Shown piece by piece: positions 4,522 to 18,799 of a stretch of 27,484 nucleotides of DNA. A model generated the notes under the pieces. That model saw nothing but the letters and a program-made list of their open reading frames with translations. It ran no database searches and was not told where the DNA came from. The position numbers were made by a program, and so were the translations under genes. Within the stretch, counting starts at the first letter, position 1. Every line of letters starts with the position of its first letter. The DNA comes from a virus: positions 1 through 27,484 of IMG/VR virus record IMGVR_UViG_3300036651_000126. The stretch is one strand, 5' to 3'.

Positions 4522-7500
4522 ATGCCGCTCCGTGACGTAACAGGGGTCGTCTTCGACCGTGGCAATGGACCTTTCAACGAGTCGGCTGCCCGTGAGGCCT
4601 ACCACCTGGTGATGAAGATGGACCCGGAGTCCGCCAACGAGTTCGTCCACCACGTCGTCAACGAGGTCGTGGAGACGGTGATCGAGGAGAACCGGGAACT
4701 GGTGCAGAAGCACCTTGACCGCACCATTGCCAAGTGCCTGGTCTACGCCGACCTCGATGCAGTGGCTGCGGGCCTCAATCTTGAGGAGCGTCAGGAGTTC
4801 AAGAAGGCTCTGCTTGCAACTGTTAGCAAGGCAGAGTTCGACCCGGATGAGCACCTGCGGGATGACCATGGTCGCTTCATTGTGATGACCACTCATCAGT
4901 TGAGCCGCAAGGACGCTGAGAAGATGGGCATCAACATTCCGCCGCACCCCGACCATGACGAGTTGGTACGGAGCAACCCTGCGGCCCTCAACCGCTACCG
5001 ATCCCAGTACGCCCAGGTGGTCAACCACCTGAACCTGCACGACGGCTTCGCTGGGCACAACAATGTCACCCTGCACTACACCAGCGGCGATCCCCAGGAA
5101 GTCAAGGTTCACAAGAACCCCGCGACCCTCGCTGCTGCGATCCGGCCCGAGGAGGGCGTAGACGTGAAGGCGGTGGAAATCACCCCCTACAAGCCCGTCA
5201 TGGGCGGCAAGGTTGTGAACCTGACCCAGGCCTTGGGTGGCGGCGCTGCTGCTGGGATGAAGACCATCGGCTCCAAGGAAACCGACATGTCGGGCTACAG
5301 CGACCCCTACGCCGAGGGGGGCGAGTCGCCTTTCGTGCGACAGTGGAACTCGGGACATCCCAGCAACTCCACCCAGCAGATGTACAACCGGATTGGCGCT
5401 GGGTCAAAGTTGATCACCGACACCGGGCTCGGTGCCGCCAACCCCCTGGCGCGCACGGCTGCCAAGTTTGGCTCCTACGTTGGCCAGTACGGCTCCTCGG
5501 CTGAGTCCGTGTTCGGCCCTCCGGTGCGCCGGATGGCCTACCGCTACCGGGGTACCGAGCGGCGACCACCCGCCGACCTTGTTGAGGAATACGGCACCGC
5601 CGTACACAACGCCAAGCAGACCCTGGGCGCTCAGCCCAACCGCCGTTACGGGGAGTCGGTTCAGGACTGGGAGAAGCGGGCCATGCTGACTCACGCTGAG
5701 CGTGTTCCGACCTGGCAGGAGCGGGGCGCGGGTCGCGTTGCCATCGCTCGCTGGTTGGAGAAGCAGGCCCCGGACAAGCAATACACCGCACTGCACCTTC
5801 AGGCTGGCCACACTCCTCCGTCTGAGGGCGTCCTCCTGAACGCTGACGGCCAAATCGTCACCACCGCTGTCGGCGCTGCTGATGACTGGTATCTGCCGTT
5901 CAACCTCAAGCACCTGAGCCAGTTGAAGGGTGGGGAGTACATCCGCACCCGCTCCTCCGGTGGCTTGACCCCTGAGGATGTCTACACCGGCCTGATGACC
6001 GGCGCGCGCCGCGTCAGCGTGGTCTCACGCTCCGGCGTGTTCTCCATTGACTTCGATGACGAACTGCGTGGCGGTCGCCGCCACAACGACAAGGCGCTGC
6101 GGATGACCAAGCGCTATGCCGAGTTGCTGGACGCAGTGCAGTCGGGCCAGGTCCAGCGAGCCGACCTCGACCCGAAGCAGATGAACGAGATTCGCGCGGA
6201 GGTTCGCAGCAAGCACCCCGGCATCTCCGGCAAGGAGTTCCAGGAGCGGGTCAACGCTGCGAAGAAGGAGCGGATGGAGAACCCCACCCACATTGATCTT
6301 GAGATTGAGCACCTCAAGTTCGACCGCGCGCAGACCGAGAAGACCCGCGCGCTGGGTAAGGATGAACTGACCGCCTACAACGAGCGCCTCTTCGATCTGA
6401 ACAAGCAGAAGGAGTACAACTGGCGGCTCAACGGGATTGGCTACGGAGCAGCCGCCAAGGCGCTCCAGGAGCAGTTCCCGTACTACATCAAGGCCTCCTA
6501 CACCGCTCGATTCGGCCACGACACGCCCATCTCTGAGAAGGACATGGGCTACGTGGAGCCCGGCGCGCTGCGGCCCACCGCCGCCCGCGCCAACTTGTTC
6601 GGGGGCGCTGTCGGCCCTAATGGAGTGCGGGTCAAGGCTCAGTGGGACGAGAAGCACAAGGGCGGCATCTCTGCGCGCACCGCTGACCACGCCAAGCCGA
6701 TTGTGGATCGCTACCCCGACAAGAAGGGGCGCAGTGGCGACATGGCTCCCGAGAGTAGCGAGAGCAGCGAGAGCGCTTCGTCCTCTGGGTGGTCAGGCTC
6801 CTCGGGTGCCTCTGCTGAGGAGAAGCAGGCGGCCTGGCTGCGCAAGCAGGAGGCCATCGAGGAAGCCACCAAGGTCCGCGCGGCCCTCCCCGCACTCGTT
6901 GGGATTAAGCAAGATGGCGGCATTGATATCCCTCAGTTCGTCGCAGCGCAGAGGTACGCCGCCATGAGCAAGCCAGGCGAGTTCGAGGAGGTGATCAGTC
7001 GCCCGGGTGAACTGGAGAAGTTCCAGGACGCCGTCCAGCAGGTCCAAGATCGTTACTCCATCGACCCTAGGTCCAAGGACACCAAGGTCCCGAACTTCGA
7101 GGAGTTCAAGTCCAAGATGGGCGGCAAGAAGGGAGGGGAGTACAAGCATGAGAAGGCTGTGCGCAACCCTGAGGGCATCTTCTCCTTCCCTGGCATCTCC
7201 CCCATCGAGCGCGATCAGGCGATGAGTGCACCCATGGCCAGCAATGGCCGCGCTGCTGGTGACGCGGACGCGACCGAGCGGCTGAACGAGGCGAAGATGT
7301 GGGTCGAAGCCGACAAGATCGCCAACGACAGTTCAATCGAGTCGGGCGATAAGGCTGCATACCTGCGGCTCAAACTTGAGCATCTTGGCATCGAGCCTGC
7401 GGACGAGGACTTCTACAGGGACGCGATGGATGAGGGGATTCGCAAGCGCGCCCTGCGGAACATCCAATTGGTCCGTGCCGAGAAGGACAAGCCGCTGGTG

Positions 7501-7596
7501 GCCATCGGGAGCGGCAAGGCTGCCAAGCAACCATTTGTGAAACCTGCGGATGAGTACCGAGGCGCAGGGCCGCGTACCAAGTTGGACCTGACATGA
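4522..7596 (+). CDS. Large head-module protein of unknown function (1024 aa)
   Basis: ATG 4522 sits one base after the portal stop. The in-frame GTG/ATG codons further up overlap the portal and were rejected. Residues 101-119 carry VSKA-x-FDP-x2-HLRDDHGRF, a motif also present in the MuF protein downstream. A beta-rich central domain around residues 445-535 includes PPSEGVLLNADGQIV, LPFNLKHLSQLKGGEY, GLTPEDVYTGLMTGARRVSV and FSIDFDDELRGGRR. A helical charged region follows, then GIGYGAAAKALQEQFPYYIK at about 636-655. A Ser/Glu-rich linker spans about 744-766, and the C-terminal 250 residues are helical. There is no signal peptide or membrane segment. The portal-MuF location implies a virion or assembly protein. 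Its biochemical role is unknown. Confidence 0.8.
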   Translation: MPLRDVTGVVFDRGNGPFNESAAREAYHLVMKMDPESANEFVHHVVNEVVETVIEENRELVQKHLDRTIAKCLVYADLDAVAAGLNLEERQEFKKALLATVSKAEFDPDEHLRDDHGRFIVMTTHQLSRKDAEKMGINIPPHPDHDELVRSNPAALNRYRSQYAQVVNHLNLHDGFAGHNNVTLHYTSGDPQEVKVHKNPATLAAAIRPEEGVDVKAVEITPYKPVMGGKVVNLTQALGGGAAAGMKTIGSKETDMSGYSDPYAEGGESPFVRQWNSGHPSNSTQQMYNRIGAGSKLITDTGLGAANPLARTAAKFGSYVGQYGSSAESVFGPPVRRMAYRYRGTERRPPADLVEEYGTAVHNAKQTLGAQPNRRYGESVQDWEKRAMLTHAERVPTWQERGAGRVAIARWLEKQAPDKQYTALHLQAGHTPPSEGVLLNADGQIVTTAVGAADDWYLPFNLKHLSQLKGGEYIRTRSSGGLTPEDVYTGLMTGARRVSVVSRSGVFSIDFDDELRGGRRHNDKALRMTKRYAELLDAVQSGQVQRADLDPKQMNEIRAEVRSKHPGISGKEFQERVNAAKKERMENPTHIDLEIEHLKFDRAQTEKTRALGKDELTAYNERLFDLNKQKEYNWRLNGIGYGAAAKALQEQFPYYIKASYTARFGHDTPISEKDMGYVEPGALRPTAARANLFGGAVGPNGVRVKAQWDEKHKGGISARTADHAKPIVDRYPDKKGRSGDMAPESSESSESASSSGWSGSSGASAEEKQAAWLRKQEAIEEATKVRAALPALVGIKQDGGIDIPQFVAAQRYAAMSKPGEFEEVISRPGELEKFQDAVQQVQDRYSIDPRSKDTKVPNFEEFKSKMGGKKGGEYKHEKAVRNPEGIFSFPGISPIERDQAMSAPMASNGRAAGDADATERLNEAKMWVEADKIANDSSIESGDKAAYLRLKLEHLGIEPADEDFYRDAMDEGIRKRALRNIQLVRAEKDKPLVAIGSGKAAKQPFVKPADEYRGAGPRTKLDLT

Positions 7597-9596
7597 CCCT
7601 GCTCCCCCAGATTGAACTGACCTCGGAGCGCCCCATTGCTCCCGAGATGCTGCTGGACGCGGCGGTCAGGGACTATCGGGCGAGGGTGGTCAAGGAGGGC
7701 GTACTGCGCGTCCTGGCTGGGCCGCTTGAGTTCGGCGGCGGCTTCCTCTCAGGCGTGCTTAAGGAGGTGATGGCAGGCAACCTGCACCCGTACCGGATCA
7801 TGGCTGGCGCTGCTATCCGGCACCTGATCCTCGACTCCCGCGAGCGCAACGGCATCTTCATCCAGGAGACGGACGCTGCCCAGGTGGCTGACGAGGCCGC
7901 TCTCAACCTGGTCACCTACGTGGCGAGCACCTCTGGGGACGCAGTGTTGGATGGCTATCACCGGATGGTCAACATGGGCATCCCGCCCAAGGAGGCCGCT
8001 CGGCGCGCCATCAGCGCCTTCGGCCTCACCAAGCCCCAGATGCGCACCATGATCGCGCTCAAGCCGGACCAGGGCGTCAAGTCCTCGGTGCCTGGGTCGC
8101 TGAAGAAGAAGTCAGACGCCTACATCCGGCGCGCCTTCCAGCAGCGGGTACGGACCCTGAACCAGAACACGGTGCGCCAGGTTGAGCACGATGCGGTCCA
8201 GTCCGGCTGGGAGGAAGAGGTCCGCACCGGCACCTTGCAGGACACCACTCTCAAGGTTTGGCTGACTGCTGCCGACGAGCGCACCTGCCCGATCTGTGCT
8301 CCGATGGATCGGCACGCCGTGGGCGTGATGGACACCTTCCGGCTCCCGGATGGCAACCGGGTGAAGAACCCTCCAGTGCACGTCAACTGCCGCTGCTCGA
8401 CCCAGTTGGTGCGGGACTATCGCGACGTAGAGCGCTTCTCCAAGGCCTGGGACCCCAAGAAGCACCCCCGTCAGAGCAACGGCGAGTTCGGACGCAAGGA
8501 AGTCGCTTTCAAGGACCCGGGGCGTCAGATCAACCTCACCGACCTCTCAATGGAGCAATTGAGTGAGGTGTCCGGCTTGACCGATCTGGGGGGTCCGCAG
8601 TTGAGCATCCCCTCACAACTGACCAATTTCACGAGCCTCACTAACTTCACTCCCCTCACCTCCCTCACTCCCCTCACCCCCACCTCGCTTAGCAACCTCA
8701 CCAGCACGGCGACCACGCCCAGCAGCCTGACCAATTACCAACTGGACGGACTGGTCTCCCCCAGCGGCAAGACCTACTCACTGACCAACCTGTCTCTGGT
8801 CGCTGCCGCCGCTACCGCGCACCCCGACCTAGCCCCTCGGGAGGCACCTATCTCAGGCCCCGTGCGCTCCCTGGGCACGGAGTACGTCTCCCTCGCGCTG
8901 CCTAGCGATTTTGAGCGCACTGATCTGAGCGATTCCAGCGGAGCCTTGTATCTCGATGGCCTCAGGTTCGTGAAGCGGGGCAATTATCCGGCGCTGCGCA
9001 ACCTCGTCAACGAGAAGATGAGTGCTCCGCGCGGCGCGGACACCTGGCTTGATGAGCATGAGCACGATATGGCTGCCGAGTTGGACGAACTCAGGTCCAG
9101 CAAGGACCCGAACATCACCCAACTTCACAAGAGCCTGGTGCATCAGTTGGTGGGCAAGAACGTCTACGGCGCGCCAGTGCTGGACATCAGCGCTGACCGG
9201 GCCAAGGAAGCGTGGCGCGAGGTGCTCAGCCGCCCTAGCAGCGAGGTGGAGCGGCGGCAGGTTGGCTGGAAGGACGGCCAGTACAGCGTCGCGGTCTTCG
9301 ATGGCAACGGGCATCAGATTGCTGAGGAGTTAGTGCCTGCTCACGTCTACGCCGCCCTGACCAACATCAGTCCCGAGGCCGAGTTCATGCCGCGCGTATT
9401 CGCTGCGCGCAACGCCTGGGATTCCAAAGCGGCTGGCACGGAGGGCGATACCGAACAGGTGGTTGCCGGAAGCGACGAGGAACTGAATGTGGGAGGGCCG
9501 TTCGTCTGGAAGAAGGGCCTCCGTGGCGTCTTCTGGCTGACGCCTGACGTAGACCTCCAGCCTCGCATGGCTCGGGGTAGGACCGGCGAAGGCTGA
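7593..9596 (+). CDS. MuF-type minor head protein with C-terminal extension
   Basis: ATG 7593 overlaps the previous stop (ATGA). The first 275 of 667 residues are a phage head-morphogenesis (MuF/SPP1 gp7-like) domain. It is helical and contains the signature WLTAADERTCPICAPMD followed by PPVHVNCRCSTQLV, a Cys/His cluster. This family binds the portal and is packaged in small copy number. Residues 282-299 carry FSKAWDP-x2-HPRQSNGEF, the tag-like motif shared with the upstream protein. Residues about 343-384 are a Leu/Thr/Asn/Pro repeat linker. A further 280-residue acidic domain has no recognised fold. Long extensions after MuF domains are known in other phages and sometimes encode effectors; none can be identified here. 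Confidence 0.88.
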   Translation: MTLLPQIELTSERPIAPEMLLDAAVRDYRARVVKEGVLRVLAGPLEFGGGFLSGVLKEVMAGNLHPYRIMAGAAIRHLILDSRERNGIFIQETDAAQVADEAALNLVTYVASTSGDAVLDGYHRMVNMGIPPKEAARRAISAFGLTKPQMRTMIALKPDQGVKSSVPGSLKKKSDAYIRRAFQQRVRTLNQNTVRQVEHDAVQSGWEEEVRTGTLQDTTLKVWLTAADERTCPICAPMDRHAVGVMDTFRLPDGNRVKNPPVHVNCRCSTQLVRDYRDVERFSKAWDPKKHPRQSNGEFGRKEVAFKDPGRQINLTDLSMEQLSEVSGLTDLGGPQLSIPSQLTNFTSLTNFTPLTSLTPLTPTSLSNLTSTATTPSSLTNYQLDGLVSPSGKTYSLTNLSLVAAAATAHPDLAPREAPISGPVRSLGTEYVSLALPSDFERTDLSDSSGALYLDGLRFVKRGNYPALRNLVNEKMSAPRGADTWLDEHEHDMAAELDELRSSKDPNITQLHKSLVHQLVGKNVYGAPVLDISADRAKEAWREVLSRPSSEVERRQVGWKDGQYSVAVFDGNGHQIAEELVPAHVYAALTNISPEAEFMPRVFAARNAWDSKAAGTEGDTEQVVAGSDEELNVGGPFVWKKGLRGVFWLTPDVDLQPRMARGRTGEG

Positions 9597-9608: not shown

Positions 9609-12452
9609 ATGGACCCGCAGATTGTTCAGAACGCGCTACGCGCAGTGCTTGGAGACGCCTACGAGGAGCGCTCCCGCGTCACCATCAACGATCCGCGCCC
9701 CGACGCTCCGGTGCGCAAGGACGCCGTTGGGTCCGACATGCACGTCATGACCTCCATCAGCACGCCCCGCAGCAAGCGCGCGGTGCGCGTCCCGGGCGGC
9801 AACGGCAAGTTGAAGCCGATGGTCTCGGTTGTGGACAACTCTGTGGGCAGTGTGGATAAGGCCATGGACCCCCAGACCAAGTCCAAGGTGGGCGAGGGCC
9901 TGACCACTGCCGGAGCGGTCGGTGGAGCACTCTCCCTCCCTGGGTTGGCGGGACACACGGGCACCAAGTTGCAGCAGGCTGGGGTGCTCAAGCCCAAGGC
10001 CGCACTCCCCCCGATGGCCGCAGGCATGAACGCGGACCCGGAGGTCGCCCACATCGGGACTGGAGTAAGCCGAAAGATCAGCCACGTTCTTAAGCCGATG
10101 GCGGACGCTGCGCACAAGTTGCCCGGCATGAAGGTCGAGGGCGAGGGGCTCCGTAACCCCAAGGTTGGTGCTGGCCTCGCTGTCGGTGCCGCAGGGCTGG
10201 AGATTGCGGGCCTGGCTGGTGACGTGATGGGTCGCAAGGCTTTCAAGGAGCAGCGTCAGGTCGGCACTCCGGGCAACATCGCCGGAGTTTCTAAGTCAGA
10301 CGCTGGCAAGCGCCGTCAGGGCGCTGCTGCTCTTGGCGCTGGCACCGTTGCTGGCAGCCTTGGGGCCGTGATGGGCGGCGTCCCGGGCGCGAAGGAGCCG
10401 GACACCCTGCGTCCCTGGAGTCTGAAGAGCGCTCCCCACCTGTCCCGCGCTGGCATCTTCGGCTACCGATCCAACGCTCATGAGCACGCCACGGCGAGCA
10501 TTAAGGCCGAGCCTCGCGTCACCGCCTACGAGAAGGGCAACATGGCCGGGAAGGTCGAGGCGGAGACCAAGATCATGCGTGGCATGCGCCGCGCCCGTAA
10601 GGGCAGTTACGCGCTCACCGCACTGGGTGGCGCTACGGCTGTGGCTGGTGCTCACCGGTTCCACGAGGGCAACAAGAAGGTCAGCAAGGCCAGGAGGAGC
10701 GACTCGCGCACCAACCTGTCCAGCGCTGAGGTAGGTGCTGGAGCCGCTCTGGCAGGCGGTGGCCACCTGATCCCCAAGGCTCTAGATCACTACGCCCGAC
10801 ACTTCGACCAGAGCGCCAAGACCCACCTGCGTTCCGCTGAGGCAATCGCTCCCAACTTGGGTGGTCCCCGGATGAAGCCTGCCCGGATGAACGCGGATGG
10901 CCACGAGGTGCGCCCGGCGAAGGTGGACCGCAAGCCCGAGGTGGAGAATTACAAGATTCTTCCCTCTAAGGCCGACCCCCAGCAGGTGCACCCGGCGCGC
11001 CAGGAGCAGAAGGGTCGCCTCAAGGGAGTCCCGCGCGAGGGCCGATTCCAGGCTGGCCTGCACCGTGGCAAGGCTGCCAACGAGGCTCACTTCGCTGACG
11101 TGTTCGCTGAGAACGCCGAGCACTTCCGTCGCCTGCGCGCACCCGGCCTGGCGCTGGCCGGAGCCGGTGCGATGGGCCTGGCGGTGTCCCACCAGGACCG
11201 AGGGCCGGTCAAGAAGTCCGCAGAGGATGTAGTGACCTTCTCCAAGGTGGATGACGACAAGCAGCAGGTCTTCGGCTGGGTCTCCATCTCCAAGAAGGAT
11301 GGGGTCGAGGTGCTCGACCTCCAGGGCGACTACGTGCCCATCGAGGAGATTGAGAAGTCGGCCTACGACTACATGCTCAAGTCCCGCAAGGGTGGCAACC
11401 AGCACGCTCGCATCTACTCCGAACTCGGTGACCAGCCCAAGCACGTCGCTGACGTGATCGAGTCTGTGGTCTTCACCCCGGAGAAGATCGAGAAGATGGG
11501 CCTGCCTGGGGATCACACCCAGGGCTGGTGGATGGGCATGCAGATTTTCGATGACGAGACCTGGCGTCAGGTGAAGTCCGGTGAGCGCGCTGGCTTCTCT
11601 ATCCACGGCCAGGGCAAGCGCGAGGTTGTCGAGAAGGCCCATGACGAGATTGATCGCAAGGAACAGGCCAAGATCATCGGCCTAGGTGCCGCTGGTGCCA
11701 CCGCTGCTGGCTCCGGTGCGGCGGCTGCCACTGTTCCGTGGCTCCAGCAGAACCACCCCGCGCGGGCGGCCAAGGTGGGGATCAAGTCTGCTCAGCAGGC
11801 TGAGAAGTTGAGCGGACACCTGAAGTTGGTTGCCGCTGGTGTTGCTGCGCCTGCGGGTATCTATGGCGGCCTGCACGCCATCCACTCCGCAGTGCACCGT
11901 CCACCCAAGAAAACCGACCCCAAGCGCACCATGGCTGACATCGTGGTCGGCAAGGCGTGGTCCCCTGTGGTTGAGCACAACAGCCTGGAGGAGGACCGTC
12001 AGCGTCGTACGGCTGGCTATCAGCGGGCCGCCACGGCTACTGCTGCTGGTGGGGCTGCTGTTGGTGCGGGTGGTCTCGCCGTGCGTCACGTCAGCCTGCG
12101 CGGTGCGGCTGAATCCAAGGCTTCCGCTGATCGCGTCCGGGTTCCCACCAGTGCTGATCTGGAGCGCAACCTCAAGCGGGGTGCGAACTACCGCAGGGCC
12201 AGGAACATCCCAGAGGGAGGCAAGAAGGCCGCCCTCTCTATGAGGACCACGAACCTGAACCACAGTGCAGCGGTAAAGACGGCCACCGACATCAAGGCTG
12301 GGCATGAAGCCGCTGCTGGGAAGTTGGTCGCTCGCGCGGGGAATGCGGGCAAGGTCGCCCGGGTTGGTGGGTTGGTCGCCCTGGGTGCCGGAGCAGCCGC
12401 TGGAGCCATCCATCACGAGCGCAAGAACTCCTGGAAGCCCTACGGCCAGTAG
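9609..12452 (+). CDS. XkdF-like capsid maturation protease in a 947-aa Gly/Ala-zipper protein
   Basis: ATG 9609 follows AGAGGA at good spacing. The central part, about residues 546-672, matches the phage XkdF serine protease family. It has VFGWVSISKKDG, LDLQGDYVPIEEIEKSAYDYMLKSR, then His599 (GNQHARI) and His612, VADVIESVVFTPEK, WWMGMQIFDDETWRQVKSGE and Ser664 in AGFSIHG. Ser664 and His599 are the likely catalytic residues by family analogy. Such proteases digest scaffold and trim capsid proteins in the prohead. Unusually, the domain is embedded between about 535 N-terminal and 275 C-terminal residues. These flanks contain some ten Gly/Ala-rich hydrophobic segments, several ending in His/basic residues (AGAIHHERK, AGAHRFHEG, LHAIHSAVHR). 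Family members are normally only a few hundred residues. The flanks may be membrane-active or head-internal. Confidence 0.85.
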   Translation: MDPQIVQNALRAVLGDAYEERSRVTINDPRPDAPVRKDAVGSDMHVMTSISTPRSKRAVRVPGGNGKLKPMVSVVDNSVGSVDKAMDPQTKSKVGEGLTTAGAVGGALSLPGLAGHTGTKLQQAGVLKPKAALPPMAAGMNADPEVAHIGTGVSRKISHVLKPMADAAHKLPGMKVEGEGLRNPKVGAGLAVGAAGLEIAGLAGDVMGRKAFKEQRQVGTPGNIAGVSKSDAGKRRQGAAALGAGTVAGSLGAVMGGVPGAKEPDTLRPWSLKSAPHLSRAGIFGYRSNAHEHATASIKAEPRVTAYEKGNMAGKVEAETKIMRGMRRARKGSYALTALGGATAVAGAHRFHEGNKKVSKARRSDSRTNLSSAEVGAGAALAGGGHLIPKALDHYARHFDQSAKTHLRSAEAIAPNLGGPRMKPARMNADGHEVRPAKVDRKPEVENYKILPSKADPQQVHPARQEQKGRLKGVPREGRFQAGLHRGKAANEAHFADVFAENAEHFRRLRAPGLALAGAGAMGLAVSHQDRGPVKKSAEDVVTFSKVDDDKQQVFGWVSISKKDGVEVLDLQGDYVPIEEIEKSAYDYMLKSRKGGNQHARIYSELGDQPKHVADVIESVVFTPEKIEKMGLPGDHTQGWWMGMQIFDDETWRQVKSGERAGFSIHGQGKREVVEKAHDEIDRKEQAKIIGLGAAGATAAGSGAAAATVPWLQQNHPARAAKVGIKSAQQAEKLSGHLKLVAAGVAAPAGIYGGLHAIHSAVHRPPKKTDPKRTMADIVVGKAWSPVVEHNSLEEDRQRRTAGYQRAATATAAGGAAVGAGGLAVRHVSLRGAAESKASADRVRVPTSADLERNLKRGANYRRARNIPEGGKKAALSMRTTNLNHSAAVKTATDIKAGHEAAAGKLVARAGNAGKVARVGGLVALGAGAAAGAIHHERKNSWKPYGQ

Positions 12453-12507
12453 CCGGAAGGTAGGTCGGGACAGCCCCCTTACGCTTGTTTTGAAGGAGTG
12501 ATGAGAG

Positions 12508-13266
12508 ATGCCGAAGCCAGCCACGCGGCTCCGCGACATGGAGATTGATGAAGTCTCCGTCGTGGACAAGGGTGCGGCTCCTGACGCTTTGATCGCCATT
12601 GCCAAGAGGGCTACCCAGGAGGTTGACATGCCCAAGTACACGTTTGAGGACGGTACGCCGGTCAGCGAGGAGGAACTCGTCCCCGGTGACATCGTCTTCG
12701 ATGAGAACGGCGGGGCCTTTGAGTACGTCCTTGAGGACGAGGCCGCCGAGGATTTTGCTGACGAGAGCGAACTGGAGCCGGTCGGCAAGGCCGCCTTCCC
12801 GTCCTTCACTGAGGAGATTCGCGAGGAGTTGTCCAAGGCGTTCGAGAACCGCGACGCCTCTGGTCAGCGTGAACTCTTCGCCAAGGCTGCCCAGGAGATT
12901 GACTCGCTGCGCCGACAGGTCGCTGAGTCTCAGAGCATCGCCAAGGCCGAGCGCGACACGCGCCTGACCGAGGCGTACATCTCCAAGGCTGCGGAGTACA
13001 ACCTCCCCGGCGACCCGCGTGACCTCGGCCCGGTCCTCTTCCGCATGGCAGAGACCATGTCCTACGAAGACTGCGCAGTCATCAACAAGGCGCTGACCGC
13101 TGCTGGCTCGATGCTGTTCCAGGAGATTGGCGCTGTGGGCGGCGGAGACAACGACGACATCCTCACCCAGGTTGCCAAGGCCGCCTACGAGGGTGGCAGC
13201 GACGTGATCAGCGTCCTGGACGAAAACCCCGAGGCTTACGCCGAGTACCTGGCGAGCCAGAAGTAA
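12508..13266 (+). CDS. Capsid scaffold-like protein
   Basis: ATG 12508 has GAAGGAG nine bases upstream. The 252-aa product begins with LRDMEIDEVSVVDKGAAPDA and IAIAKRA. That resembles the short [E/D]-x-VSLVDKGA element I associate with the ends of XkdF-type proteases and the starts of their scaffolds. An acidic segment follows (FEYVLEDEAAEDFADESELE). Next come a helical coiled-coil-like region at about residues 100-160 (LFAKAAQEIDSLRRQVAESQ) and a C-terminal region with YNLPGDPRDLGPVLFRMAETMSYEDC and LFQEIGAVGG, typical of actinophage scaffolds. It is flanked by the protease and the decoration/capsid genes, the classic position. It presumably lines the prohead interior and is digested by the upstream protease. 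Confidence 0.75.
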   Translation: MPKPATRLRDMEIDEVSVVDKGAAPDALIAIAKRATQEVDMPKYTFEDGTPVSEEELVPGDIVFDENGGAFEYVLEDEAAEDFADESELEPVGKAAFPSFTEEIREELSKAFENRDASGQRELFAKAAQEIDSLRRQVAESQSIAKAERDTRLTEAYISKAAEYNLPGDPRDLGPVLFRMAETMSYEDCAVINKALTAAGSMLFQEIGAVGGGDNDDILTQVAKAAYEGGSDVISVLDENPEAYAEYLASQK

Positions 13267-13281
13267 GGAAGGAGTGCAGTC

Positions 13282-13707
13282 ATGACGGCGAATTACGATG
13301 AGTCCCTCCGGACCATCACCCTCAATGCAGATGCCACCTTGGCCGTGCTCACTGGCGCGCCTGGTCTCCCTGGGTCTGCCAACGGCGTCAACGTCGCTGG
13401 CAACCAGTACCGGGCGGTAGTGGTCACGGGCGCTCGGCAGGCAGGTCTCTCCAACGCCAACAACGGCAAGGTTGTCGGCGTCTGCCAGAGCAAGCCGCAG
13501 TACACCGGAAACGCCAGCACCATCGGCTTCTCGGGTGTCTCGCGGGTGATGACCTCGACCAACGTCACCGCTGGTCAGGCCGTCTACTGCGATGCCAACG
13601 GCAAGGGGTCCAACTCCAACGCCACCGGGGTTCTCCTCGGCATCGCTCTTGACACGTCCACTACGGCGGGATCGCTGGTTCCAGTGCTCCTTCAGTTGAG
13701 CGAATAA
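13282..13707 (+). CDS. Head decoration-like protein (DUF2190-type)
   Basis: ATG 13282 follows a strong AAGGAG seven bases upstream. The 141-aa product is small-residue-rich and beta-rich: YRAVVVTGARQAGLSNANNGKVVGVCQSKPQ, then GFSGVSRVMTSTNVTAGQAVYC and GVLLGIALDTSTTAGSLVPVLLQ. This resembles DUF2190-type proteins, which lie immediately before major capsid genes and stabilise the shell or occupy its surface. Its position between scaffold and capsid supports this. The strong ribosome binding site fits a structural protein made in high copy. The exact family is uncertain. Confidence 0.75.
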   Translation: MTANYDESLRTITLNADATLAVLTGAPGLPGSANGVNVAGNQYRAVVVTGARQAGLSNANNGKVVGVCQSKPQYTGNASTIGFSGVSRVMTSTNVTAGQAVYCDANGKGSNSNATGVLLGIALDTSTTAGSLVPVLLQLSE

Positions 13708-13723
13708 GAAGGAGTGAATAGCC

Positions 13724-14734
13724 ATGCCTAACCCCGTAGGCCCTGACCTTCACGTCAACGTGCCGCTGACCAACGTCAGCATCGCGTATTTCCAGGATCA
13801 GTCGAACTTTGTCGCTGACAAGGTCTTCCCGATCATCCCGGTTGACAAGCAGAGCAACCTCTACAACCGCTACAGCAAGTCGCAGTGGCGCAAGACGAAC
13901 GCGCAGAAGCGTGCTCCGGGTACCGAGTCGGTCGGCACCGGGTACGACATCACGCGTGACCAGTACTACTGCGATGTCTACGCGATCCACAAGGACATCA
14001 CCGACCAGGACCGCGCTGCGGCTGACTCGGAGTGGATGCTGGACAAGGACGCCACCAACCTGGTGTCCAACGACCTCTTGCTCATGCGTGAGATTGCCTG
14101 GCAGCAGAACTTCTTCGGCACCGGTATCTGGGGTACCGACCTGGCTGGTACCAACACCGGCTCTGGTCAGTTCCCCAGCACCAACACGTTCCTTCAGTGG
14201 GACCAGGCGTCGTCTGACCCGATTCAGCAGTTCGCGACTCTCCAGGAGTCGTTCATCCAGAACTCGGGTCGCAAGGCGAACAAGTTGGTGCTCGGTGCTC
14301 ACGCGTACAACGCGCTGAAGAACCACCCGGACCTGATCGACCGCATCAAGTACACCCAGAAGGGCATCGTGACGACTGACCTCATCGCGACCCTGCTGGA
14401 TGTGGAGAAGGTCTACGTCTGCTACGCCTCGCAGGCGACCGGTCCCCAGATGGATGGTGCGGTGGCCGATGACGCCAACGCGACCTACTCCTTCATCGCG
14501 GACACCAAGTCGGCCCTCCTGTGCTACGCACCGGACTCGCCGTCGCTGCTCACCCCGAGCGCGGGCTACACCTTCAACTGGAAGGGCTACCTCGGCGGCA
14601 ACGCCCAGGGCGTCCGGATGAGCCGGTTCCGCATGGAGCACCTCAAGGTGGACCGGATCGAGGGTGAAATCACCTACGCACAGAAGGTGGTCTGCAACGA
14701 CATGGGCACCTTCATGCACGCGGTCACTGCGTAG
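13724..14734 (+). CDS. Major capsid protein
   Basis: ATG 13724 is preceded by AAGGAG at nine bases. The 336-aa product has the size and position of an HK97-fold capsid subunit. Its N-terminal arm (VPLTNVSIAYFQDQSNFVADKVFPIIPV) leads into an E-loop-like basic stretch (YNRYSKSQWRKTNAQKRAPG). Then come DITRDQYYCDVYAIHKDITDQDR, a spine helix (NDLLLMREIAWQQNFFG) and a domain containing GRKANKLVLGAHAYNALKNHPDLIDRIK. The late segment (FRMEHLKVDRIEGEITYAQKVV) resembles the P-domain strand that closes many capsid proteins. A strong hairpin follows at 14760-14792, consistent with high expression. The HK97 fold is inferred from context and pattern; no catalytic motif is expected. Confidence 0.85.
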   Translation: MPNPVGPDLHVNVPLTNVSIAYFQDQSNFVADKVFPIIPVDKQSNLYNRYSKSQWRKTNAQKRAPGTESVGTGYDITRDQYYCDVYAIHKDITDQDRAAADSEWMLDKDATNLVSNDLLLMREIAWQQNFFGTGIWGTDLAGTNTGSGQFPSTNTFLQWDQASSDPIQQFATLQESFIQNSGRKANKLVLGAHAYNALKNHPDLIDRIKYTQKGIVTTDLIATLLDVEKVYVCYASQATGPQMDGAVADDANATYSFIADTKSALLCYAPDSPSLLTPSAGYTFNWKGYLGGNAQGVRMSRFRMEHLKVDRIEGEITYAQKVVCNDMGTFMHAVTA

Positions 14735-14759
14735 TCCTAGGACTGCGTACCAAGCCTGA

Positions 14760-14792
14760 GAGGGGCGGGTGGGGTCAACCCGCTCGCCCCTC
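14760..14792 (+). terminator. Strong hairpin after the capsid gene, probable (partial) terminator
   Basis: The arms 14760-14773 and 14779-14792 pair over 14 positions, including two G-U pairs, around a 5-base loop (GTCAA). The outer 8 pairs (GAGGGGCG with CGCCCCTC) are perfect. No T-run follows, as is common for hairpin terminators in GC-rich bacteria. It lies 25 bases past the capsid stop and 20 bases before the next start. That position fits an attenuator or 3' stabiliser separating abundant capsid mRNA from downstream genes. Confidence 0.65.
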
Positions 14793-14812
14793 ACTCAGTT
14801 CCAGGAGAGAAC

Positions 14813-15145
14813 ATGGACGGTCACGACGCCTTCTTTGGCGAGGTGAGCAAGGGCTGGTCCCCGGGGAAGGTCGCTGCCGTCTACCGGGCCGGAAGCAGTC
14901 ACGGGGGAACCCTGGCGACCGAGTGGGGCAACTCGAAGATGATCGCGCACCGCAACGGCAAGCATTTCGCAGAGATGACCCGCGAGGGAGTCTCTCGGGG
15001 TGACGCCTCCTTCGCAATCCATAACGGCAGGCGGAACGCCGCTGAGGCCAGGGAGATGCTCTCCACTGGCAAGCGGTACGGGAAGCGCAAGTTCGTCGCC
15101 CCCGGGGCCGCCCATCGCCCTGGCCAACTACGACCCCTCCCTTAA
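14813..15145 (+). CDS. Tag-bearing hypothetical protein after the capsid gene (110 aa)
   Basis: ATG 14813 follows AGGAGA. The product opens directly with MDGHDAFFGEVSKGW, the clearest copy of the GH[D/E]AFF motif that recurs in this window. The remainder is basic and small (HGGTLATEWGNSKMIAHRNGKHFAEMTREGVSRG, then AIHNGRRNAAEAREML). It has no membrane segment or catalytic signature. It is not one of the standard head genes and lies between the capsid hairpin and a Pro-rich protein. The first 25 coding bases after the A of ATG are nearly repeated at 18750-18774, at the 3' end of another gene. A virion-associated accessory role is inferred from this alone. Confidence 0.75.
   Translation: MDGHDAFFGEVSKGWSPGKVAAVYRAGSSHGGTLATEWGNSKMIAHRNGKHFAEMTREGVSRGDASFAIHNGRRNAAEAREMLSTGKRYGKRKFVAPGAAHRPGQLRPLP
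14814..14838 (+). repeat. 25-bp near-identical repeat, copy 1 (encodes DGHDAFFG)
   Basis: These bases match 18750-18774 at 23 of 25 positions, and both differences are synonymous. Here the repeat forms the very start of a gene. Copy 2 forms the end of another, nearly 4 kb away. Confidence 0.85.
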
Positions 15146-15155
15146 GGAGAATGAC

Positions 15156-15749
15156 ATGAAGCCCCTTCTTGCCAGCCGATACATCAGTTGGATGGCCATC
15201 CGCCCGCTTCGCTTCGGTGAGCGCGACTTCGCCCCTGGCGAGAAGGTGCCCCAGAAGTACCTGGAGCCCATGCGCGACCCTGAGGTGCTGATCCGCACCA
15301 ACCGCCTCGCTGCGGTGACCAAGGACATGAACAAGATTCCCCGGATGCTGCGCAAGTTGGTGACCGAGGAGGAGGAGATGCGGGCCAAGATTCTGGCTCC
15401 TCGTGGCGGCGTCGGCCAGGTCGTGCCGACCCACCTGCTGGCCTCTACCCCTGAGCCGGAGCCGGTGACGCTGCCCACCTTCACTGATGAGGATGTGGAG
15501 CCGACCGAGTTCGAGAAGGCACACTCCGCCAGCGCGGGTCCTGACACGGCCCCTCTGGGCCCTGCTGACATCTCTGACAGCACCCCGGCCCCTGCGCCCA
15601 AGGAAAGCGGGCAGGCGGACACGCCGGTACCGTCTGAGACGCCGGAGCCTGAGGTTACCCCCGTCCCCGTCGAGGAGCCCCAGGCTCCGGTCCAGCCCCA
15701 GGCGGACGCGACTTCAGAAGCAACGCCAGAGGAGGCTTCCGGTGAGTAA
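15156..15749 (+). CDS. Head-associated protein with acidic Pro-rich tail (197 aa)
   Basis: The chosen start is ATG 15156, with AAGGAG six bases upstream. An ATG at 15151 is out of frame and too close to the ribosome binding site. The N-terminal half holds a small beta-like domain (ISWMAIRPLRFGERDFAPGEKVP, then DPEVLIRTNRLAAVTKD). This resembles the tiny R-P-x-R-FxPGxxVP domains of small phage head proteins. From about residue 90 the protein becomes a disordered acidic Pro/Thr/Glu-rich tail (PEPEPVTLP, TPEPEVTPVPVEEPQ). The stop overlaps the start region of the next gene by 8 bases. Its role is not known; a surface or connector-associated protein is possible. Confidence 0.75.
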   Translation: MKPLLASRYISWMAIRPLRFGERDFAPGEKVPQKYLEPMRDPEVLIRTNRLAAVTKDMNKIPRMLRKLVTEEEEMRAKILAPRGGVGQVVPTHLLASTPEPEPVTLPTFTDEDVEPTEFEKAHSASAGPDTAPLGPADISDSTPAPAPKESGQADTPVPSETPEPEVTPVPVEEPQAPVQPQADATSEATPEEASGE

Positions 15750-17841
15750 GAACATCACGTACCACCAGACTGCGGCTCGTAAGGGTCGCCGCACCCGTAA
15801 CGACTCCGCCGCCATCGGCGGTCTGGGCCTGGCAGGGCTCGCGGCCACCCCGAAGAAGCCCGGGTTTTTTGGCAATTCGCACCTGAGGGAGAGCGCGAAC
15901 GAGACAAATCGCATTGCCTCGGCAGAGCATCGCGCTTCCTCGTCCTTCTCTGGGGCGGACAGGGTCAAGGGTCATGTGGCGACCGAAATGGGCCGCGTTG
16001 CGAACCTGGCTGGCGACGTGCGACACACGGTCCACCCCGGGCGCGGTCTCGCTGAGGCTGCGGTGGGGGTCGGTGCGGCTGGGATTGCAGCAGGCGAGGC
16101 CCGTAACTTCCACCACACCCGGCAGGAGCAGAAGTTGCGCCGCAACCGGGGCGTCTCCAAGTCTGCCTTCCTTGATGAAAGCGTGAGCAAGGCCATGAAG
16201 GGCAGGCAGGTCTACTGCAAGCAGCACGGCAAGTTCGACGCGTGCGCCGAATCGGTGGAGAAGGCCTACAAGGCCAAGCCTAAGCCGGGCGACCCGGGCT
16301 TCATGGGCCACGCCATCAAGAATGCCCACAAGCGTCACCGTGCGGCCCTCCAGCGCTCCAAGACGGAGAACCTGGGTGACAACGGGATCGTCCACGCGGT
16401 CGGCAAGGCTGCCAAGTTCCCCCAGGGTGGCGACGACGGCATCCGGCACCTGACCGGTACCTCGCACATCACCACCTCGGTGGAGGGTCGCGGGACTGGC
16501 AAGTTGGTGGCCTGTGAGGTCGGCAACCGCCAGTTCGATGGCACCCCGATGATGGGTCACGCCAAGGGACACGCTGCGATCCTCCGGCAGGACAAGCAGG
16601 GCAAGTCCTCGCCTGCTACGGCTGCGGTGGGTGGCACCAGCCTGCGCGAGCAGGTCCCTGGCAAGAGCGTCTCCAAGGCGCATGAGGCTGACCCGTTCGA
16701 GGTGTTCTCTAAGGCCTCCATGTTCGGGACCAAGGGTGACAAGCGGAACACCAAGTACTACGCGGCTGCCACTGGCGGCTCCACGCTCGGCGGCCTTGTT
16801 GGTCGCTCAGCCGGGGGTGAGGTCGCCGGGGTCGCCGGGAACCGGACCGCGTTCGAGGCCGCCAAGGCGGGGCACGAGGCTGCTACTGATGCCACGCTTA
16901 GTAGCCGCGCCTGGGGCGGCGGGGCGATTGAGTCAATCAAGGCTGGACAGAAGGCAGCCAAGGTGGCCCGAAATGCCGTCCCTGGCTACAAGGCTGTCGA
17001 AAGGGGCGGCCTGATTGGTGCTGGCGTCGGCGCGGCTGGCGCAGCCGGGGCCTACGCGATGCACCGCCACAACAAGGGCATGGGTGTCCAGAAGTCGGCT
17101 GACCCGTTCGAGGTTGAGAAGGCCGAGAACAAGAATGTCCGCGCGAGCGGGGCGGCTCGCTACGGCCTAGGGCCCATCTTCACCGCCAAGAAGGGGAAGA
17201 AACTCGCCGCTACGGGGACCATGTTCGGACACTCCCTCGGCGGTGCGGTGGGGGGCGGCGTGACGGGAGCAGGTGCCGGGGCCGCTATTGGGCGTGTAGT
17301 GGGGGGCAAGGAAGGCATGATCGGCGGAGCCAGCCTGGGCGCGCTTGGCGGCGAAATTGCTGGCTCGGTTGCAGGAGCGCGCCATGCTGCCGACAAGAAT
17401 GCTCGCCTGGGTCGCCTCAAGAGCCACTATGTTGTGCAGAAGTCAGCCTTCCTTGACGAGGGCGTCTCCAAGGCGGTCAAGAAGGCCGAGCGGCCCGAGG
17501 AAGCGAAGAAGGGCCAGCACCCTCCCGAGGTGCACGCCTACATCGCTGAGAAGAAGAAGGACCTGAGCAAGTCTCACGACGCCTTCCTGGTGGACATCGA
17601 GAAGTTCGATGGCTTTGGTGCGGCCAAGAATGTCATCCCGGGGATCAGGCAGGCTGGCAGCCTGGCTGCCGGTGCGGTCAAGACCAACCCCATGGCCGCA
17701 GGCGTGGCTGGCGGGGCTGTCGGCGGTGGCCTGATGGGCAAGAAGAAGGTCAGGGACGCCATCGGTGGTGCAGCGGGCGTGGGTGCCGGAATCGGTGCAG
17801 CCAAGGGCGTGAAGGCGTTCCGCGCGTTCAAGGCGATCTAG
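15742..17841 (+). CDS. Gly/Ala-zipper protein with repeated peptide tags (699 aa)
   Basis: The chosen start is GTG 15742, because AGAGGAGG lies six bases upstream; the frame is open much further up but overlaps the preceding gene. Hydrophobic Gly/Ala-zipper blocks lie at about residues 24-36, 102-120, 341-366, 422-440, 496-550 and 638-695. Two of the blocks end in His/basic clusters (NFHHTRQEQK, MHRHNKG). Between them sit repeated short motifs: VSKSAFLDE-x-VSKA at 138 and in similar form at 565, DPFEV at 318 and 454, and SKSHDAFLVDIEK at 609. A small Cys-containing globular region spans about 155-300 (VYCKQHGKFDAC, GTSHITTSVEGRGTGKLVACEVG). I recognise no family. Similar zipper segments occur in the 947-aa protease protein, suggesting both act together, perhaps as head-internal or membrane-inserted ejection proteins (inference). 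Confidence 0.82.
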   Translation: MSKNITYHQTAARKGRRTRNDSAAIGGLGLAGLAATPKKPGFFGNSHLRESANETNRIASAEHRASSSFSGADRVKGHVATEMGRVANLAGDVRHTVHPGRGLAEAAVGVGAAGIAAGEARNFHHTRQEQKLRRNRGVSKSAFLDESVSKAMKGRQVYCKQHGKFDACAESVEKAYKAKPKPGDPGFMGHAIKNAHKRHRAALQRSKTENLGDNGIVHAVGKAAKFPQGGDDGIRHLTGTSHITTSVEGRGTGKLVACEVGNRQFDGTPMMGHAKGHAAILRQDKQGKSSPATAAVGGTSLREQVPGKSVSKAHEADPFEVFSKASMFGTKGDKRNTKYYAAATGGSTLGGLVGRSAGGEVAGVAGNRTAFEAAKAGHEAATDATLSSRAWGGGAIESIKAGQKAAKVARNAVPGYKAVERGGLIGAGVGAAGAAGAYAMHRHNKGMGVQKSADPFEVEKAENKNVRASGAARYGLGPIFTAKKGKKLAATGTMFGHSLGGAVGGGVTGAGAGAAIGRVVGGKEGMIGGASLGALGGEIAGSVAGARHAADKNARLGRLKSHYVVQKSAFLDEGVSKAVKKAERPEEAKKGQHPPEVHAYIAEKKKDLSKSHDAFLVDIEKFDGFGAAKNVIPGIRQAGSLAAGAVKTNPMAAGVAGGAVGGGLMGKKKVRDAIGGAAGVGAGIGAAKGVKAFRAFKAI
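16686..16703 (+). repeat. 18-bp exact direct repeat, copy 1 (encodes ADPFEV)
   Basis: The 18 bases GGCTGACCCGTTCGAGGT occur identically at 17097-17114, 411 bases downstream and in the same reading frame. Each copy encodes Ala-Asp-Pro-Phe-Glu-Val and is followed by a Lys within four residues. Identity at synonymous positions suggests recent internal duplication of this peptide motif or recombination between copies. Confidence 0.85.
17097..17114 (+). repeat. 18-bp exact direct repeat, copy 2 (encodes ADPFEV)
   Basis: This is the partner of 16686-16703, with perfect identity over 18 bases. Here the motif is preceded by VQKS and followed by EKA, and it lies directly after a Gly/Ala-rich segment ending in a His/basic cluster. 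Confidence 0.85.
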
Positions 17842-17849
17842 GCTGAATT

Positions 17850-18350
17850 ATGCCTCCTTCCACCTACTCCGGGGACCCGGCGACCAGTGACCTCGATCAG
17901 GTGCGATTCCTGCTCGGGGACACTGACGTGTCCAACGCGCTGTTCACTGACGCTGAGATTGAGTGGGGTATCAGCACCTGGGGTCCGCTGTACGGCTCCG
18001 ACCTATTGGTGGCTGCTCAGTTGGCCGAGAACGCTGCCGCCTCCTACGCCCAGCAGGCCTCCTACAACGCCGATGGCGTCTCGGTGTCCTTCGGGCCCAT
18101 TGGGGATGCCCTGCGTGCCGTAGCGGCCAGCCTGAAGAACCAGTACGCCATGGCTGCCCAGTCTGGCGTGATGCCTGACGCTGGTGGAGTGACTCCTGGT
18201 GAGGGGATGATCCCCAACACCCGGAACTTCATGTTCGGCATCAGGATGGACGACAACCCGAGCGCTGGCCAGCAGGACTTCGGTGGCGAGTGGCCTGCTG
18301 ACTTCTACAACGAGAGCACCTGGGGAGCACCGGGTGAGTGGTCGCCGTGA
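17850..18350 (+). CDS. Head-to-tail adaptor (neck connector)
   Basis: ATG 17850 lies eight bases after the previous stop, with only a weak ribosome binding site. The 166-aa product has the pattern of a gp6/gp15-type adaptor: an N-terminal DLDQVRFLLGDTD followed by ALFTDAEIEWGIS, then a helical AAQLAENAAASYAQQA. The LxxVRxLLGDxD...xLxDxEI pattern is typical for these ring-forming proteins, which dock under the portal. The C-terminal third is a Gly/Pro-rich acidic tail that may bind the next neck ring. It is first in the neck module, and its stop overlaps the next GTG start (GTGA). Confidence 0.85.
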   Translation: MPPSTYSGDPATSDLDQVRFLLGDTDVSNALFTDAEIEWGISTWGPLYGSDLLVAAQLAENAAASYAQQASYNADGVSVSFGPIGDALRAVAASLKNQYAMAAQSGVMPDAGGVTPGEGMIPNTRNFMFGIRMDDNPSAGQQDFGGEWPADFYNESTWGAPGEWSP

Positions 18351-18799
18351 GCGGGTTCACCAGGGGGCAGGCCCTCGATAACACCTCGGCAGACCCCCAC
18401 ATGGGCGACATGTCCCAGCGGGAAGGCGTCGAGCGCAGCAGCGAGGTCCTGAAGAAGGGCCGAACCGTGAAGACCCCTACCGGGCATCAGGTTTCAGTGC
18501 ATGGGCCTCGCGCTGTGGTGATTGCGCGCACTTTGGACCATGATCGCAGTGGACGCCCGGCCCCACTCATGCATGTCACCACCGTGGAGTCGGTCCGCTC
18601 TGGAGAGGCCGCGAAGACCTTCCAGAAGCACGCCAAGGCAATGGGACGGCATATTGCCAACCCGGCCTCCCTCCACGAGGAGATGGTGCATGGTGTCACG
18701 CAGGCAGCCTCGAAAGGATTTCTGGGGACTGGGCTCTTTCGCAAGAGCCTGGACGGTCACGATGCCTTCTTCGGAGGCCAGCGATGCGCAACGGACTGA
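18347..18799 (+). CDS. Tag-bearing hypothetical protein in neck module (150 aa)
   Basis: The chosen start is GTG 18347, overlapping the adaptor stop as GTGA; GTG 18338 is an in-frame alternative. The product has a basic, His-containing body (VKTPTGHQVSVHGPRAVVIARTLDHDRSGRPAPLMHVTTVES). A helical segment follows (FQKHAKAMGRHIANPASLHEEMVHGVTQA), and the C-terminus carries the GHDAFFGG tag near the end (FRKSLDGHDAFFGG). The gene lies between two standard neck genes but resembles neither. Its end overlaps the next gene by 16 bases. A role is not assignable from sequence; the shared tag groups it with the 110-aa, 70-aa and 699-aa proteins. Confidence 0.75.
   Translation: MSGFTRGQALDNTSADPHMGDMSQREGVERSSEVLKKGRTVKTPTGHQVSVHGPRAVVIARTLDHDRSGRPAPLMHVTTVESVRSGEAAKTFQKHAKAMGRHIANPASLHEEMVHGVTQAASKGFLGTGLFRKSLDGHDAFFGGQRCATD
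18750..18774 (+). repeat. 25-bp near-identical repeat, copy 2 (encodes DGHDAFFG)
   Basis: This is the partner of 14814-14838. It encodes DGHDAFFGG close to the C-terminus of the 150-aa protein. The GGAGG at 18773-18777, at the edge of this repeat, also serves as the ribosome binding site for the gene at 18784. Confidence 0.85.

Follow-up and report, generated by a model that had tools for sequence, protein, structure and literature searches.

Gly/Ala-segmented proteins and a recurrent peptide label in the head gene block of one clade of phages with XkdF-type proteases

When a capsid protease and a second giant protein of the same head gene region both carry series of glycine- and alanine-rich hydrophobic segments, a simple question arises: what would such segments be doing in a phage head? 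The question is raised by the IMG/VR virus record IMGVR_UViG_3300036651_000126, analyzed here over 27,484 bases (hereafter, the window). In it, a 947-amino-acid (aa) protein (9609..12452, + strand), delimited as an open reading frame (ORF) and characterized by Pfam and by segment count, has Gly/Ala segments in the flanks on both sides of its protease domain, and a 699-aa protein (15742..17841, + strand, GTG start) is built of Gly/Ala segments separated by charged linkers, together with copies of a short peptide that we denote the label. By its domain, the larger protein is an XkdF-type capsid protease with predicted activity on head proteins: the Peptidase_S78_2 (XkdF) profile matches residues 541-671 (11229..11621, +; Pfam E 2.9e-17) with 63.3 bits, the cut-off being 24, PHROG head maturation proteases match as well, and the gene occupies the position typical of XkdF, between the portal and MuF-like genes (starting at 2700 and 7593) and the major capsid gene (13724). 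Here we lean, by a modest degree, toward the view that both proteins are part of a set, spread across the clade, of basic accessory proteins of the head interior that would be addressed to the prohead by a peptide and ejected with the DNA, with the Gly/Ala segments acting at a membrane.

Are the segments more than a matter of impression? Under a strict rule that counts as a segment any run of 14 or more residues lacking D, E, K, R, N, Q, H and P, the 947-aa protein contains 7 Gly/Ala-rich hydrophobic segments and the 699-aa protein 6, whereas 1000 shuffles of each yield means of 0.31 and 0.50, respectively, and never more than 3. An earlier note on this DNA had counted about ten and about six; the second figure is borne out, and the first can be reached only with a looser rule. 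All five His/basic segment ends that it quoted are present in the translations, and basic residues border the segments on both sides. Histidine is over-represented in the 8 residues following the segments when the two proteins are pooled (12/120 vs 48/1175 elsewhere, Fisher p 0.009); most of this enrichment is due to the 947-aa protein (p 0.002), and in the 699-aa protein alone it is not significant (p 0.53). The frequent GxxxG spacing reported in both proteins is found in the 699-aa protein (32 vs 18.3 +/- 3.8 in shuffles, with 0/1000 reaching this number) but not in the protease protein, where enrichment was rejected (15 vs 13.7 +/- 3.3 in shuffles). Nor did the suggestion of a shared homologous module survive comparison of the two proteins, the best BLASTP E being 1.2, with no detectable homology. 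In glycine-zipper character the proteins resemble the Gly-zipper_YMGG and Gly-zipper_Omp families, and two labelled relatives do match Gly-zipper_YMGG; however, neither window protein matches the Gly-zipper families (PF13441, PF13488) at E up to 1. The AlphaFold models place helices at the segments, but their pLDDT (predicted local distance difference test) values of 39.8 and 58.2 are too poor for a fold search. The Gly/Ala segments and the His-rich ends are real.

The next question is whether these features extend beyond a single genome. Two alignment-based scans added 98 further loci (L027-L124), and an XkdF ORF was found in 94 of all fetched loci, 58 of which reach 115 bits or more when scored against the window's domain, the other 36 falling below, a divide between the clade and the other XkdF loci that was set after the scores had been viewed. 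Among the loci with at least 1.5 kb downstream of XkdF, an ORF with at least two Gly/Ala segments lies just downstream of XkdF in 52/53 clade loci, the sole exception being L071, versus 0/35 other XkdF loci. Several loci represent the same or near-identical phages; counted over distinct XkdF sequences, the figures are 40/41 and 0/30. The statement of the earlier note that standard capsid proteases come without such segments thus holds for all 35 other loci. The enrichment of histidine is clear in relatives: in 72 of their Gly/Ala proteins, histidine makes up 5.2% of the residues after segments (101/1947) vs 2.3% (392/16823; p 2e-11), and 2.8% before segments. It might be objected that a high-GC genome simply yields Gly/Ala linkers that look like segments and have no common function, and the clade is indeed GC-rich (median 0.61). 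Yet shuffles of the same proteins do not yield segments, no Gly/Ala gene is seen in the seven low-scoring XkdF loci whose GC reaches 0.55 or above, so that high GC alone is insufficient as an explanation, and specific motifs and module homology are conserved. Such a compositional artefact is already contradicted by these data and appears very improbable. The Gly/Ala segments are a real, conserved head-region feature of one phage clade.

A second trait that many relatives share is the label. In relatives it takes the form M-x-SAFGV[DE]HG-x-(I/V)SK, or DPFEVSK forms, and is found at the starts, at the ends and between the modules of proteins. The core label is present in 30/72 Gly/Ala proteins of the relatives, in 52 copies (shuffles: mean 0.33, maximum 3), and the DPF[E/S/G][V/I/L]xK and SAFGVDHG forms co-occur in the same proteins (L051, L052, L066, L092). 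The label expressions were fixed after the data had been viewed, and only then were IMG/VR and GTDB scanned and charge and position tested. The window has a repeated motif of this kind that had escaped the earlier note, KSAFLDExVSKA / ADPFEVxSKA / DGHDAFF. The 699-aa protein contains two exact copies of the core label (5/20,000 shuffles have at least two) and five SAF/DPF/HDAF copies (0/20,000 shuffles), all on the + strand: SAFLDESVSKA at residues 141-151 (16162..16194), DPFEVFSKA at 317-325 (16690..16716), DPFEVEKA at 454-461 (17101..17124), SAFLDEGVSKA at 568-578 (17443..17475) and DAFLVDIEK at 613-621 (17578..17604). Two further copies, both DGHDAFFG, lie 3.9 kb apart in nearly identical DNA: one is N-terminal in a 110-aa protein (14816..14839, +), and the other is near the C-terminus of a 153-aa protein (18752-18775, +), followed by eight residues to the end. 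The 110-aa protein (14813..15145, +), which starts MDGHDAFFGEVSKG and is encoded by the first gene 3' of the capsid gene, is the only one in the window with an N-terminal copy, the others being internal or C-terminal; its similarity to labelled proteins of relatives is weak (E 0.004-0.006, barely better than the best shuffle at 0.011). A second, lineage-specific label, 'GHG...K', was considered and dropped, as it proved to be a single conserved motif of one protein family (family 1, see below) that is not repeated (26 loci).

How widely is the label used? The exact N-terminal pattern occurs in 103 stretches of IMG/VR vs 2 of the GTDB genome collection; the two GTDB matches (L125, L126) are contigs of metagenome-assembled genomes assigned to Lachnospiraceae and Burkholderiales. 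From all loci, 189 distinct proteins with a label near the start were collected. The residue frequencies within these labels are partly dictated by the search patterns. At the DNA level, 114 distinct N-terminal labels show 100 spellings and use both serine codon boxes; hence the label is selected as a peptide. Without their first 25 residues, the 189 proteins form 112 groups, 88 of which contain a single member; the labelled proteins are thus mostly unrelated outside the label, and the relatives show a short N-terminal peptide common to otherwise unrelated proteins, as seen with the capsid targeting sequence (CTS) of phage T4. The commonest group consists of 36 small proteins (L128, L166, L167, L182 and others), several of which have a single terminal Gly/Ala segment after an ISxKxxGR-like motif. 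All 189 labelled proteins carry a positive net charge. Per 100 aa, its median is +11, whereas the 691 control genes, taken by a simple longest-ORF rule on the same strand, have -1.3 (p 4e-68).

The genomic position of the labels is equally distinctive. In all 16 contigs that were searched whole, the label occurs on one strand only, and a reversed control pattern never occurs; the XkdF family was detected in 15 of these contigs, the capsid family in 15, and a tape-measure match in 14. In the 13 contigs used for the position test (the other 3/16 had no tape-measure match, no XkdF/capsid match, or a head block interrupted by the end of the contig), 56/75 labels fall between XkdF and the tape measure, an interval that makes up 18.5% of the bases (p 6e-26), and 40 of them come after the capsid gene. 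Within labelled loci, the label is absent from the portal (0/14), XkdF (0/22), cement (0/22) and capsid (0/22) proteins and from five connector/tail-tube families (0/63), with weak matches in 1/19 MuF and 1/22 scaffold-like proteins. Judging from this distribution, the label is a mark of accessory proteins and not of the shell. The sharing of one label by unrelated, uniformly basic proteins of the head block makes their packaging as internal proteins more likely.

The same distribution bears on a different role for the label, namely, that it is where the XkdF protease recognizes and cuts its substrates, so that polyproteins such as the 699-aa protein would be cut at each copy into Gly/Ala proteins. 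Copies do lie between the modules of multi-module proteins, the protease is encoded in the same gene block, and what one phage has as joined modules another encodes as individual genes. However, the label is mostly found at residue 2-4 (181/189) or in the last few residues, where cutting would release nothing, and it is missing from the protease protein itself and from the conserved structural proteins, the usual substrates of prohead proteases. We regard a cleavage site as unlikely.

If the label is an address, what would it deliver? Pfam and PHROG were searched with 71 proteins: the 110-aa protein of the window and 70 labelled relatives. Pfam gave one GNAT acetyltransferase (E 5.3e-6) and the two matches to Gly-zipper_YMGG (best E 8e-5), the rest being weak; PHROG gave one weak match to 'internal virion protein' (E 0.0078). 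An HExxH motif is present in 9/189 labelled proteins, in most of them followed by KR and, a few residues on, by an arginine, and these proteins may be metallopeptidases. Nine large labelled or Gly/Ala proteins showed no convincing Pfam domain. ART-like and ParB-like domains in L047, L037 and L050 were an impression without Pfam support at E up to 1 and are not used here.

The protease itself offers a view of how the Gly/Ala modules move. Its N-flank includes a module at residues 184-217 (10158..10259, +), a Gly/Ala segment followed by A-x-LAGDxxxRxxxxxQ, which is matched by a hidden Markov model (HMM) of 14 relatives with 18.3 bits (E 4e-5), whereas none of 600 shuffles exceeds 5.9 bits; the module, a segment followed by AELxGDxxAxRAL, recurs in the XkdF N-flanks of relatives and in separate proteins of what we call family 1. 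Members of this family have a basic N-terminus, usually 3-4 segments, a YDPEADRQRR-like motif and, at the C-terminus, a segment, a basic/His stretch and aromatic residues. The C-terminal flank of the 947-aa protein (residues 676-947; 11634..12449, +), with a conserved DRQRR motif and a C-terminus of Gly/Ala, His/basic and aromatic residues, is by HMM and alignment the counterpart of this separate gene: an HMM of 25 separate members, from which 15/40 candidate upstream genes were left out as lacking the motif used for cutting, matches residues 794-946 with 24.9 bits (E 1e-6), and none of 600 shuffles is among the matches listed. In most relatives, the counterpart of the C-terminal flank is a gene of its own between the protease and scaffold-like genes; long fused XkdF versions are also present in L056 and L059. 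In L002, the nearest relative by capsid (54% identity), a shorter XkdF gene precedes two separate genes, one for a 374-aa protein with 3 segments and one for a 263-aa protein with 4, and then comes the scaffold-like gene; BLASTP of the window proteins against the Gly/Ala genes of L002 found nothing significant. Since the modules are often separate in relatives and are matched by both flanks, the protease of this phage is fused to them, and the view of the flanks as separable modules is supported on both sides of the domain. That the protease would release them, and that they would form a channel or protect the DNA during ejection, was the further proposal of the earlier note. The 699-aa protein is modular as well: residues 475-552 (17164..17397, +) form a Gly-zipper module homologous to an N-terminally labelled 114-aa protein of L134 (2855-3199; pairwise 20.5 bits, E 1.7e-5 in a database to which 300 shuffled versions of the 699-aa protein had been added), and an HMM from just three Gly-zipper sequences did not match the 699-aa protein.

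The location of the separate family-1 gene, which in most loci lies directly upstream of the scaffold-like gene and adjoins the protease, could also mean that the Gly/Ala proteins are assembly factors, that is, membrane-bound nucleators of the prohead core that act beside the scaffold and are not delivered to the next host. The labelled proteins are, however, numerous, mostly unrelated and variable among relatives (112 groups), and some of them look enzyme-like (the GNAT match and the HExxH proteins), which better fits cargo than core structure; we consider a role as assembly factors quite unlikely, and packaged internal proteins remain the preferred interpretation.

Several observations weigh against that interpretation. 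The 947-aa protein has no recognizable label; the window's own label forms are divergent and were recognized after the fact; part of the clade has Gly/Ala genes without the SAFGV label (e.g. L049, L054, L055, L067-L070, L072-L077); and 19/75 labels lie outside the interval between XkdF and the tape measure. Furthermore, the segments are only mildly hydrophobic (mean Kyte-Doolittle 1.27 over 280 segments), which makes membrane insertion uncertain. This weak hydrophobicity, along with the positive charge of all 189 labelled proteins, would suit proteins that remain on the genome to condense the DNA or neutralize its charge and that play no part at a membrane, the segments being elements of self-assembly or packing. 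Against this, the segments run for 13-21 residues with no charged or strongly polar residue, and such stretches with basic flanks seem to resemble membrane or self-associating hairpins. On these grounds, pure DNA condensation appears somewhat unlikely.

Returning to internal proteins that act at the membrane, the following sequence of events can be envisaged. The label (SAFGV[DE]HG-x-(I/V)SK in relatives; DPFEVxSKA, SAFLDExVSKA and DGHDAFF here) would draw unrelated proteins into the assembling prohead, where it would probably be bound by the 252-aa scaffold-like protein, a candidate receptor, or by another inner component. In this phage, the fusion of the protease to two Gly/Ala modules, the C-terminal one being a separate gene in most relatives, would mean that cargo is carried in cis. 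Upon infection, small or weakly folded basic proteins would exit together with the DNA. The Gly/Ala hairpins, which have basic and His residues at their borders, would insert into, or align at, the membrane, helping the DNA or companion proteins across.

Do known systems provide precedents? T7-like phages have internal virion proteins that reside in the head and are proposed to form a conduit across the envelope. No profile of the P22/T7 ejection or internal virion families matched in the window, relatives yielding the one weak match only, and, unlike P22 and T7, the window has a tape-measure gene. The P22 ejection proteins gp7, gp16 and gp20 are likewise head-internal proteins for which a conduit across the envelope has been proposed (PMC8402733).

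The best-supported comparison is with T4: the label would work like the capsid targeting sequence, without being a family member by sequence. According to the available part of PMC9026906, the T4 CTS is an N-terminal peptide of ten residues that guides unrelated proteins to the head interior before being removed. As with T4 IPI-III and Alt, a short N-terminal peptide here precedes otherwise different small proteins that are encoded with the prohead protease (PMC9026906, same part); packaging with the DNA is known for T4 and would apply here by analogy. The differences are considerable: the label sequence is not that of T4, the T4 CTS is cleaved by gp21 and is common to few proteins, the label here is also C-terminal and internal and occurs on up to several genes per contig, and Gly/Ala hairpin cargo does not figure in that part of the T4 description (PMC9026906). 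Homology to T4 internal proteins or Alt was not seen, with no Pfam or PHROG match of this kind among the window proteins or the 71 scanned proteins beyond the weak 'internal virion protein' match (E 0.0078).

Polyvalent proteins (Iyer et al. 2017, PMC5512222), which in the accessible text are encoded with virion structural genes and thought to be packaged and injected, resemble the present ones in being multi-module and in having zincin-like peptidase modules, to be compared with HExxH in 9/189 here. Unlike here, glycine or transmembrane features are not mentioned in that text (PMC5512222), and by Pfam neither the 699-aa nor the 947-aa protein has the at least two catalytic or nucleic-acid-binding domains per chain that define polyvalent proteins. 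The protease domain of the 947-aa protein is the same as in other XkdF / Peptidase_S78_2 proteases, but most members lack Gly/Ala flanks, and being fused to cargo modules is a peculiarity of this clade. A literature search did not find 'SAFGV' in a phage context, a weak negative given that subscription journals and preprints were thinly covered; searches on glycine zippers with phage ejection, on N-terminal motifs of ejected proteins and on XkdF with internal proteins gave nothing on point among the matches listed.

In the head gene block of the window, the portal gene (2700-4520) is followed by a gene for a 1024-aa protein (4522-7596) with no family assigned (nothing in PHROG, and in Pfam nothing below E 0.28) and by the MuF-like gene (7593-9596). 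The 1024-aa protein has a motif H-x-R-x-x-x-G-x-F (HLRDDHGRF) that the MuF-like protein carries as well (KKHPRQSNGEFGRK), the MuF-like protein of L002 has DRDRRGRF, and this is possibly a second short motif of head proteins. A tRNA-Gly called by ARAGORN at 8294-8382 (-), inside the MuF-like gene on the opposite strand, is probably a false positive. Between the 947-aa and 699-aa genes, which are therefore not neighbours, lie the genes for the 252-aa scaffold-like protein (12508..13266, +), assigned by its position between the protease and capsid genes and having 47% identity in L002 and homologues in 60 loci, the cement/decoration protein (13282..13707, +; Pfam Phage_cement_2, E 9.4e-7), the major capsid protein (13724..14734, +; phrog_1005, E 1.6e-80), the 110-aa protein and a 199-aa protein. 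The 153-aa protein is encoded at 18338..18799 (+). Connector genes are found 3' of the 699-aa gene, followed by a tape-measure-like ORF that runs off the contig end, so that a long tail is to be expected.

As for the wider occurrence of the two window proteins, an IMG/VR scan with the 699-aa protein returned one identical contig; identity to the window over both the 699-aa and the capsid protein is seen in L001, which is 8.5 kb long and comes from a different sample. The same database gave no match to the whole 947-aa protein as a single query. Among INPHARED phages, tblastn with the 699-aa protein found no match, and with the 947-aa protein the protease domain alone was matched, in 19 records. 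Sequence searches of the PDB found no match, PHROG had none for the 699-aa protein and only protease families for the 947-aa one, and Pfam detected no domain in the former (best E 0.21) and just the protease in the latter. When INPHARED was queried with a label peptide, with two labelled proteins and with the 699-aa protein, no clear relative emerged at the sensitivity used, and the group seems to be without close sequenced isolates. A tyrosine integrase was found in 1/14 searched contigs (the records behind L050, L145, L157, L147, L169, L194 and L138, together with those behind L134, L027, L060, L056, L055, L066 and L067); the phage group may be mainly lytic.

Tentatively, and as a possibility rather than an expectation, the argument can be carried one step further: one short peptide, carried by many unrelated basic proteins and at the joints of concatenated modules, could be a general address for loading variable cargo into the heads of a large uncultured phage clade, an effector-delivery platform whose cargo would include Gly/Ala hairpins as well as metallopeptidase-like and acetyltransferase-like enzymes, with the protease sometimes fused to membrane-active modules. 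If so, a single peptide of 12-14 residues would predict which orphan genes are packaged and injected, giving a function to many orphan proteins, and would provide an address tag, open to testing, with which proteins of choice could be loaded into the heads of phages quite unlike T4. It would also reveal a capsid protease that has evolved by becoming fused to the cargo it accompanies, and the way in which internal proteins help phage DNA to cross membranes would become testable with small, separate modules.

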